NCBI RefSeq assembly: GCF_000719775.1
Contig: NZ_JOHR01000030.1
Span: 1 to 64,000 of the forward strand
Source: Streptomyces sp. NRRL F-5135
GTDB taxonomy: Bacteria > Actinomycetota > Actinomycetes > Streptomycetales > Streptomycetaceae
Reading direction: 5' to 3'
DNA length: 64,000 nt
Below, one piece after another: positions 41,782-43,777 of this stretch. The notes beneath the pieces are model-generated. The model was not told the DNA's origin. It was given only the letters and a program-made list of their open reading frames with translations, and searched no databases. The position numbers and the translations under genes are program-made. Within the stretch, counting starts at the first letter, position 1, and every line of letters begins with the position of its first letter.

Positions 41782-42885
41782 TCAGGCCGCAACCTCGTCC
41801 ACCAGCATTCGCAACGTCAGCGAGTGCTTTTCAGGTGGAAGCGCGTCCATGGCGCCTTGGGCGTACGCCATCCCGCCCGCCTTGTCCCCGGAGCGCGCGA
41901 GCATCAGTCCGCGGTGAAGCTCCAGGTGGGTGGCGAACCGCGGAAGTGAAGGGGGGAGTTCGCGGCGTGCGTTCGCCTGTGCTTCGACGGCAAGCCTCTC
42001 ATCGCCGAGCCTGGCGAACAGCAGGGACAGGAAGACGTTCATCCGCCACCAAGGGACGGCGTAATCGCTTGGCTCGTTGTCCGACCCGGCAGCGTCGAAA
42101 ATTCTCCGGCCCTGGTCCGCCAGAAGGTACGCCGTGTCTCGGTCCCCGCGAATAGCAGCCACGTGCGCCTTGCCCATGACGGCGTTGAGGAGTCCGAGGG
42201 ACGGCCGGTCGGAAATCGCCATTGCCTGATCGGCGAGAAGATCTGCCACGCCAAGGGACGCGCCTTCGTAGCCCAGTGCGATGGCCGCGCGGCCACGCAC
42301 CCATACACGAGTGTTCTCGTCGCTACTCTCGTCGGCGGCACGCGCGGCCGTGCGGTACCAGCCGACGGTCTTCGAGCCGTCCGAGCCGGGGAAGGTCTTG
42401 GCATAGAGCGTCATCAGGCGGCTTGCGACCGACCATAGATGCGGGGTATCGAGCTGTTGTTGAACGATGACGAGTTCCCCCGACACGCGGCGCTGAATGT
42501 CCGACGCGCCAAGGCTCATGTACTCAGTGCCGTACGTGGAAAGCCGGTCTTCCCACGCGTCGAGTGTCGGTCCGCCATCGAGGCGAGCGGCGAAGCCGGC
42601 GGACAGGAGGTCCGACGCGACCACGGGAGCTATCGCAGTAGCGGCAATGTCACTGATGAATGTGCGTCGTTTCACTTCACCCTCAAGAACAGCCAGCGGA
42701 ACGTCCAGGACTGCGGACAGACACCGGAGGTAGTAGGGCCCGGGTACCGTCCTGCAACGCTCCCAGCGGCTGACGTACTCCCGCTCAAGGGTCGTGCCGA
42801 AAGCGTCGTTGATTTCTGACGCTAGCCGCCCCTGGCTCCAACCACGAGCCTGCCGAAGGTCCCTGATCAGTGCTCCCATGGACAT
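41782..42885 (-). CDS. XRE-family regulator with TPR-like C-terminal domain
   Basis: The first 60 residues form an XRE-type HTH (LIRDLRQARGWSQGRLASEINDAFGTTLEREYVSRWERCRTVPGP). The remaining 300 residues are helical, with Ala/Leu-rich repeats (SVASRLMTLYAKTF, AARAADESSDENTRVWVRGRAAIALGYEG, LADQGRRIFDAAGS) that resemble tetratricopeptide or RRNPP-like peptide sensors. This is the type of large XRE regulator abundant in Streptomyces. No DUF397 partner is visible. Codon use is less GC3-biased than the core, which suits acquisition. It is divergent from three tiny ORFs that may be its targets or partners; this link is inference. Confidence 0.85.
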   Translation of the reverse strand: MSMGALIRDLRQARGWSQGRLASEINDAFGTTLEREYVSRWERCRTVPGPYYLRCLSAVLDVPLAVLEGEVKRRTFISDIAATAIAPVVASDLLSAGFAARLDGGPTLDAWEDRLSTYGTEYMSLGASDIQRRVSGELVIVQQQLDTPHLWSVASRLMTLYAKTFPGSDGSKTVGWYRTAARAADESSDENTRVWVRGRAAIALGYEGASLGVADLLADQAMAISDRPSLGLLNAVMGKAHVAAIRGDRDTAYLLADQGRRIFDAAGSDNEPSDYAVPWWRMNVFLSLLFARLGDERLAVEAQANARRELPPSLPRFATHLELHRGLMLARSGDKAGGMAYAQGAMDALPPEKHSLTLRMLVDEVAA

Positions 42886-42894
42886 GCATCCATC

Positions 42895-42968
42895 TTGCCC
42901 CTACAGGCGCCCCTGCGCGGGCGAACACACAGGCGGGCGTGGGAGCTTGCCACTACTGATGCCCCTAC
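42895..42968. promoter_or_regulatory. Repeated 9-bp elements between the XRE gene and the small ORF operon
   Basis: TGCCCCTAC occurs at 42896-42904 and 42960-42968, and the one-base variant TGCCACTAC at 42948-42956. The last two start 12 bp apart, so they lie on nearly the same face of the helix. On the minus strand they read GTAGGGGCA and GTAGTGGCA. The repeats lie in the shared region between divergent starts, which makes them candidate operators for the XRE regulator. Confidence 0.6.
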
Positions 42969-43067
42969 CTCGTCTCACCCGTCGGGCGAAATCCTTCGTA
43001 GACGTAAGTGTCCCGGCGCCGCGCGAACGGCCCGGGACGTGGTCAGCGCTATGAGGGAGCGCCAACA

Positions 43068-43301
43068 ATGGAACAGATTAGTCATTCCCGCCAGGTGGAA
43101 GACACGGGGCTCCGGGATCACGCCGAGAACCGGAGGCCGGCGCTGGAGGGGGCCGTCAAGACCGCGTACCGCGCGCTGCTGAAGCACATGGAGAAGTGCC
43201 GGCCGTGCCGTGAGTACGGCGTGGACTGCCCGACGGCGCGGAGTCTGCGTAGCGTGTGGAAGCGGGCGGCCGTCGCTGCGAACGCACAGGGGCTCGCGTG
43301 A
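43068..43301 (+). CDS. Small cysteine-containing protein, first of a three-gene operon
   Basis: This 77-residue protein starts at the ATG 43068 (MEQISHSRQVEDTGLRDHAENRRP) and has a helical centre (LEGAVKTAYRALLKHMEKC) and a C-x2-C-x6-C motif in KCRPCREYGVDCPTARSL, which could bind zinc. The length, low GC3 and position mirror small proteins I associate with XRE regulators in Streptomyces. Its stop overlaps the next GTG start by 4 nt. I do not recognise a function. Confidence 0.7.
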   Translation: MEQISHSRQVEDTGLRDHAENRRPALEGAVKTAYRALLKHMEKCRPCREYGVDCPTARSLRSVWKRAAVAANAQGLA

Positions 43302-43453
43302 CGACGTCGATCGCGGGACTGCCCGTCGACATGAGCCGTCGACCGGCACGGCCGGCGCGGCGTCCGGGCGCCTGGATCCCGTTGTGCACCTGCCCGGGGC
43401 TGCACGTCCGTGTCTTCCGTCGTCGCGGGAAGGTGGCGGTGCAGTGGACATGA
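43298..43453 (+). CDS. Tiny CxCP protein, second of a three-gene operon
   Basis: This 51-residue frame starts GTG in the previous stop (GTGA) and ends in an ATGA overlap with the next frame, so it is tightly packed between two likely coding genes. It is Arg/Pro-rich with the motif PLCTCPGLHVRVFRRRGKVAVQW near the end. The CxCPG pattern resembles the CxCPM of the following protein. No ribosome binding site is needed if coupled. Coding status rests on the overlaps; no function is known to me. Confidence 0.6.
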   Translation: MTTSIAGLPVDMSRRPARPARRPGAWIPLCTCPGLHVRVFRRRGKVAVQWT

Positions 43454-43680
43454 CGATTCGCGTCTACCGGGTCGCCTCTGACGGCACCCGGACCGAGACG
43501 GTGCCGGACTACCGGGTCGACGGGACAGCGAAGCCGAACCGGAAGCTGGGCTATCCGCGCACCTGCGCATGTCCGATGCACAAGGGCGGACCCATCAATC
43601 CGCCGGTCAACGGGCCGGACGCCCCGTGGGCCAACGTCGTATCGTCCTCCCGGAGCCTCGGCGGGCGCCGGACTCCGTAG
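43450..43680 (+). CDS. Small CxCP protein, third of a three-gene operon
   Basis: This 76-residue protein starts at ATG 43450 ([25 protein letters not shown]), with beta-strand-like polar sequence and then [24 protein letters not shown]. The CxCPxH motif could bind metal, and the shared CxCP pattern links it with the 51-residue protein before it. Its ATG overlaps the preceding stop by 4 nt. Two hairpins follow (9-bp arms at 43706-43740 and 43745-43777), which could end the operon. Function unknown. Confidence 0.65.
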
Positions 43681-43705
43681 CGATGATCCCGGCCTGACCC
43701 TGGAC

Positions 43706-43777
43706 TCCCGTGCGGCGGGGCGCCCACCTGTCGCACGGGATGAGGGGCGGAGGCGCTTTGCCCGGCATCCTCCGCCC
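43706..43777 (+). terminator. Pair of hairpins after the three-gene operon
   Basis: TCCCGTGCG (43706-43714) pairs with CGCACGGGA (43732-43740), and GGGCGGAGG (43745-43753) pairs with CCTCCGCCC (43769-43777). Each has a 9-bp perfect stem with a 15- to 17-nt loop. Together they probably end the small-ORF transcript before guaB1. Confidence 0.6.

Follow-up and report, generated by a model that had tools for sequence, protein, structure and literature searches.

What is a regulator gene with three tiny companions doing between a SorC-type regulator gene and guaB1 in Streptomyces sp. NRRL F-5135? The window, the whole stretch of 64,000 nt analysed here, comes from a genome of 8,022,241 bases in 116 contigs. 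In it an XRE-type regulator gene on the minus strand (41782..42885, 367 aa) diverges from three small plus-strand genes, each overlapping the next: ORF1 (43068..43301, 77 aa), ORF2 (43298..43453, 51 aa), and ORF3 (43450..43680, 76 aa). The three genes form an operon with 4-nt overlaps (GTGA and ATGA). ORF1 is preceded by GAGGGAG, ORF2 starts with GTG, and no promoter was recognised. The open frames at 41782-43680 bear out what a sequence-only reading of this DNA had described: the divergent layout, the sizes, and the overlaps, as well as the motifs C-x2-C-x6-C in ORF1, CTCPGLH in ORF2, and CACPMH in ORF3. No published description of such a block was found in the open-access literature. With a probability of roughly one half, we read the block as a laterally moved regulatory cassette that consists of an autoregulated regulator and a divergent operon of small proteins.

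From the SorC-type gene to guaB1

The SorC-type gene lies at 40313-41362 and guaB1 starts at 43880. Between the stop of the former and the start of the latter there are 2,517 nt in the window, compared with 252-1000 nt between matched ends in 12 relatives. guaB1 is found in 40 of 41 genomes, and 30 loci (one of them the window's) were compared; the SorC-type gene is inside the flank in 12 of the 30, and the remaining loci have a flank too short to judge. The alignment with the two shortest relatives breaks near 41354 and picks up near 43930. Codon use also differs: GC3 is 0.74 in the regulator and 0.81-0.87 in the small ORFs, but 0.92-0.94 in the neighbouring rsmB-like, rpe, SorC-type, and guaB1 genes and 0.89 in a sigma-factor-like gene. 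As judged from spacing and alignment, the regulator and ORF1-3 are an insert lying somewhere within 41363..43879 (no strand assigned). Both an insert and less biased codon use had been claimed for the block, and both claims hold.

The regulator is present in 39 of 392 Streptomyces genomes, including the window's (E<=1e-60), and has relatives in Nocardia, Actinomadura, Nocardioides, and other genera. Relatives are also carried by Streptomyces plasmids (six of the seven plasmid records examined are linear). Among 84 larger neighbours of the regulator, no Pfam family occurs in more than three. A phage origin was considered and set aside, as the regulator has no match in 50,697 phage records; viral contigs hold three regulator loci, one of which duplicates another locus of the set (L023), and no match to ORF1. 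A defence island was also considered and rejected. There is no common large neighbour, and 26 PADLOC models matched among the 84 (E<=1e-10). Among the PADLOC matches listed (25 models), each fits one or two neighbours. The strongest is to an oligonucleotide cyclase, which we assign by context to the plasmid locus L099. At this locus (2-2873), nucleotidyltransferase-like and ThiF-type proteins lie beyond the small genes in a CBASS-operon-like arrangement. Two other observations concern the surroundings of regulators. In L100, an annotated small CDS just 3' of the regulator (5139-5291) resembles a piece of the regulator's own C-terminal part. In L007, a frame that contains CNEFCDHCY and resembles a radical-SAM protein by eye points away from the regulator, at about 430-1450 nt from its start.

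Direct repeats upstream of the regulator

Three copies of TGCC(C or A)CTAC had been pointed out between the divergent starts. They are present, at 42896, 42948, and 42960, and with one more at 58913 the window contains four copies of TGCCMCTAC (expected 0.43; none of 100 shuffles reaches four). The lone fourth copy, TGCCCCTAC at 58913-58921, is far from the regulator. The repeats are better described as half-sites that form tandem pairs linked to the start of the regulator. Read on the minus strand, the distal predicted operator pair (42948..42967) matches TAGKGGCA-N4-TAGKGGCA perfectly. With a degenerate fourth half-site there is also a proximal predicted pair (42896..42915, minus strand), which has two mismatches to the same pattern and is separated from the regulator's ATG by about 10 nt. 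Both positions, about -81 and about -30, are kept in relatives.

The scan for the pair covered relatives whose 5' end is intact and whose upstream DNA is long enough, mismatches being counted over the 16 specified positions. At two mismatches or fewer, it is found within 150 nt upstream of the regulator in 39 of 58 relatives and in none on the opposite strand. In control tiles from the same loci, both strands included, one of 7,240 matches at this level. Without L012 and L101-L105, which are similar to L010 and L100, the count is 33 of 52 relatives. In a separate set of 17 further non-duplicate regulator loci, 11 have the pair at two mismatches or fewer. It is rarer in relatives below 73% identity (7/18), and most Actinomadura loci are among the 19 of 58 relatives that lack it at two mismatches or fewer. 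The repeats thus appear to be a conserved operator of a regulator subfamily, to which the regulator is predicted to bind. Note that six loci with ORF1- or ORF3-like genes outside the subfamily have at most one TAGKGGCA half-site each, which indicates that the operator goes with the regulator subfamily.

In the window's genome the pattern occurs eight times at two mismatches or fewer, against 84 times for a backward control pattern. The only perfect copy is the pair at 42948-42967, and the pair at 42896-42915 is among the eight. Since there is a single perfect copy and no paralogue of the regulator in the genome (E<=1e-5), the site most likely serves this locus alone. The best pair lies 100 nt from ORF1. 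A search of the open-access literature with the operator letters gave no Streptomyces title among the matches listed.

Small genes beside the regulator and elsewhere

ORF3 (MTIRVYRV...CACPMH) is a member of a widespread small family with the pattern MTxxVYRVxxDG...CxCP. A word search gave Streptomyces relatives of 89% and 92% identity, the latter over 70% of the length. A search with the single sequence hit 16 of 199 Streptomyces genomes (E<=0.01, the window's counted), and a profile hit 97 of the 199 (E<=1e-4), with up to 12 matches per genome. In the alignment of 12 members, T2, D11, P36, C39, and C41 are invariant. Compared with Pfam and NCBIfam up to E 0.1, the 12 members match no family, save for one weak Asp-box (BNR) score. 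A subtype with SRDSGRTW (L191-L207) is Asp-box-like; the weak Pfam BNR score is seen in one of the 12 members scanned.

For ORF1, the C-x2-C-x6-C of the sequence-only reading extends to H40-x3-C44-x2-C47-x6-C54. The protein database has an entry identical to ORF1, and Streptomyces relatives of 84% and 80% identity were found by word search. Matches to the single sequence occur in 8 of 150 relatives (E<=0.001, the window's genome counted) and to the profile in 47 of 199 Streptomyces genomes (E<=0.001). The H and the three C residues are invariant in the five-member alignment. Of 29 ORF1-like loci, no fewer than 10 have the exact motif and no fewer than 18 have it in exact or relaxed form; these are lower bounds because the wrong segment was shown for several loci. 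H-x3-C-x2-C is the defining motif of zinc-associated anti-sigma factors such as RsrA, and ORF1 shares it as a small protein whose model is helical (pLDDT 74.6). The profile scores, in contrast, fall well short of the curated thresholds: the RsrA model gives 13.2 bits on ORF1 (cut-off 62.5), and zf-HC2 gives 13.7 bits on an ORF1 relative (cut-off 22.2). ORF1 is probably a small metal-bound helical protein, and metal binding by the predicted ORF1 and ORF3 proteins is consistent with their invariant Cys/His positions.

The genome of the window contains a decayed second copy of ORF1-2-3 with the order kept (contig C14; L079, 8371-8938). A frame beside it resembles a truncated HTH/DUF5919-type gene. 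Save for this copy, no relatives of ORF2 were found by word search. Lack of conservation, which had been named as a point that would count against the small frames, is thus seen for ORF2 alone and not for ORF1 or ORF3. A comparison of synonymous and nonsynonymous changes had also been suggested. For ORF1, pS is 0.43 and pN is 0.19, in a single comparison over 39 codons.

Are the small genes regular partners of the regulator? A tblastn search for orthologues of ORF1-3 in 58 regulator loci gave nothing convincing, and profiles were therefore needed. Similarly, tblastn of ORF3 against plasmids gave no match and was too weak, since plasmid L099 has an ORF3-like gene that a profile did detect. The ORF3 profile was made from the window and six members from other contexts, with no seeds from the slots beside regulators, so that its test on 83 regulator loci (738 kb) is not circular. 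It gave eight matches up to E 0.1. Seven directly adjoin the regulator, six divergently and one downstream, and L005 contributes the eighth as a second copy; the ORF3-like frame of L134 is broken at its start. An ORF1 profile built likewise matches L099 and L109 among the regulator loci. A further match in L034 (E 0.0035) was discounted because the motif is absent on reading, and one in L037 was also not counted. Plasmid L099 carries an unannotated pair of ORF1-like and ORF3-like genes that diverges from the regulator. In L109, which belongs to the viral collection of contigs, four frames come after the regulator in the same orientation: ORF3-like, CxxC...DC, ORF1-like, and zinc-ribbon-like. 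ORF1-like and ORF3-like genes are side by side in five more genomes, where the regulator's operator pair is absent.

With five small families (ORF1, ORF3, and three others from the slots, one of them DUF7848), 38 matches were found over 70 regulator loci, 36 of them beside the regulator, in a count that is partly circular because all five profiles contain slot sequences. At least one family is present in 24 of the 70 loci. The other 46 related loci have none of the five alongside, and thus no one small partner is obligatory for the regulator subfamily. The co-occurrence that had been suggested as a check is therefore found as recurrent small partners, but not at every regulator. Codon-model gene calling missed most small genes in the divergent slots. 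An all-against-all comparison of slot ORFs also groups shadow frames and was used for leads alone.

ORF1-like and ORF3-like genes are not confined to this subfamily. An XRE-type HTH gene lies within about 1.5 kb of the ORF3-like gene in 23 of 29 loci (E<=0.01). These loci are the best-scoring ones and not a random sample, and five share neighbours, so that fewer are independent. When the window and the loci that fed the HTH profile or came from the same search (L179-L184) are omitted, the count is 17 of 23 at E<=0.01 and 11 of 23 at E<=0.001. The background is three of 99 tiles of 3.1 kb (E<=0.01); these tiles replaced 29 guaB1 loci (0/29), which were dropped as a control because they are all one orthologous locus. 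For ORF1-like genes, such a neighbour is found in 10 of 29 loci. In another contig of the window's genome (C5, L238), an ORF3-like gene (2507-2722) is divergent from a different XRE-type gene (2786-4171). The ORF1 and ORF3 families are thus also neighbours of XRE-type regulators of other kinds. Beside regulators of the subfamily studied here, such an operon may or may not be present; it is usually divergent and recruits its genes from a set of tiny proteins, many of which have Cys or Cys/His motifs. It had been stated that similar cassettes occur in streptomycetes. This is supported in the sense of interchangeable modules, with ORF2 as the part that has relatives nowhere but in the decayed copy.

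These distributions bear on whether the block is mobile cargo with little present function, a regulator gene that moves about together with decaying small passengers. The patchy presence of the regulator, the unrelated larger neighbours, the plasmid copies, and the decayed second copy are all what such cargo would leave. We consider it unlikely, however, as ORF3- and ORF1-like genes adjoin regulators far above background, pS exceeds pN in ORF1, and the open frames and the operator are intact at the window's locus.

Regulator structure and function of the block

The regulator contains HTH_31, which scores above the Pfam cut-off (30.4 against 27 bits). HTH_3 scores just below its own cut-off, and up to E 1 Pfam lists these two alone, without DUF5753. 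The AlphaFold2 model (pLDDT 83.1, pTM 0.70, from 45 sequences) has an HTH and a helical repeat, and TPR-like is a fair reading of the C-terminal part of the model.

The HTH and TPR-like repeats of the model recall the RRNPP receptors (PlcR, Rgg, PrgX, and Rap), and one rival reading would make the regulator an intracellular peptide receptor of this type, its signal peptide coming from or near the locus. The PlcR-PapR-DNA complex is the top Foldseek match in the PDB and the only one below E 0.001 (E 4.6e-4), and RRNPP proteins make up 32 of the 50 rows listed (hand count). The TM-score of the PlcR match is low (0.33, rmsd 17.8), however, and the VIA scores put APPBP2 (16.9) and MalT (16.3) above Rap (15.1), PlcR (14.4, rmsd 18), and AimR (14.1), so that the weak match is common to other TPR proteins. 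No export signal is obvious by eye at the starts of ORF1-3, and inspection by eye of the 150 nt immediately 3' of the regulator in 64 regions showed no shared peptide gene; no cognate signal peptide was recognised. The regulator is actinobacterial, while the RRNPP family is placed in Bacillota in the available portions of two papers (PMC10075063, PMC12700828). Peptide signalling of this kind is distinctly unlikely here. Very unlikely is a toxin-antitoxin system with one small protein as toxin and the regulator as antitoxin: compact overlapping small genes do adjoin an XRE regulator, and a type II nature has been proposed for XRE-DUF397 pairs, but the available text of the same paper also reports that they activate antibiotic production instead (PMC10364602), no known toxin family is above cut-off for ORF1-3 in Pfam, NCBIfam, PHROGs, or PADLOC, related regulators mostly lack the small families, and ORF2 is unconserved, which leaves the earlier term toxin-like unsupported.

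The XRE-DUF397 systems (Scr1/Scr2) are among the closest known. They also combine an XRE regulator with a small companion and, according to the available parts of two papers, exist many times per Streptomyces genome (PMC6262351, PMC10364602). The XRE-type HTH is found here too, but the companions are of other families and the C-terminal domain of the regulator is another one; ORF1-3 have nothing above cut-off in Pfam, DUF397 included, and nothing firm in NCBIfam, PHROGs, or PADLOC. The closest parallel is the WhiJ9-iosA-bldB9 locus of S. venezuelae. In the accessible text of its description, the region between iosA and whiJ9 has three direct repeats to which WhiJ9 binds, activation of iosA needs WhiJ9, mutant data are consistent with self-repression by WhiJ9, and BldB-type small proteins, which hetero-oligomerise, may link in with the locus (PMC10294661). 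Both loci have an XRE-type regulator, intergenic direct repeats, and a divergent small gene, and the data on self-repression are theirs. They differ in that neither DUF397 nor DUF5753 turned up in the block here and the C-terminal part of its regulator is TPR-like, in that its repeat is TAGKGGCA in tandem pairs and not CGXXCTCAAC (PMC10294661), and in that its divergent genes encode Cys-motif microproteins.

By this analogy, the cassette most likely works like the WhiJ9-iosA locus, with direct repeats, self-repression, and control of a divergent small gene. The regulator, of a subfamily that appears to carry its own tandem direct-repeat operator upstream, would bind the TAGKGGCA pairs and repress itself from the proximal pair next to its ATG. 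Binding of a ligand or peptide by the TPR-like domain would switch the divergent ORF1-3 operon. ORF1 and ORF3 would fold around metal and may be adaptors for regulators, antagonise them, or, as in WhiJ9-iosA-BldB9, be developmental effectors. Of the functions suggested by the sequence-only reading, a small regulatory module is the one supported by the conserved operator, the insert, and the recurrent small-protein partners.

A bolder version is speculative and rather unlikely in full. In it, PlcR-like actinobacterial HTH-TPR receptors with a direct-repeat switch would control an exchangeable operon of metal-knuckle microproteins, and these would be plug-in partners of XRE regulators across Streptomyces. 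Such a system would be a counterpart of the BldB/DUF397 network, would involve two or more partner families that have hardly been described, and might extend RRNPP-like signalling beyond Bacillota.

Streptomyces has many XRE regulators with small companions of unknown biochemistry, and the literature found deals with those of the DUF397 kind. Adding two more widespread companion families and a directly testable operator would show what such companions do. The same system would show whether TPR-type regulators of actinobacteria sense peptides.
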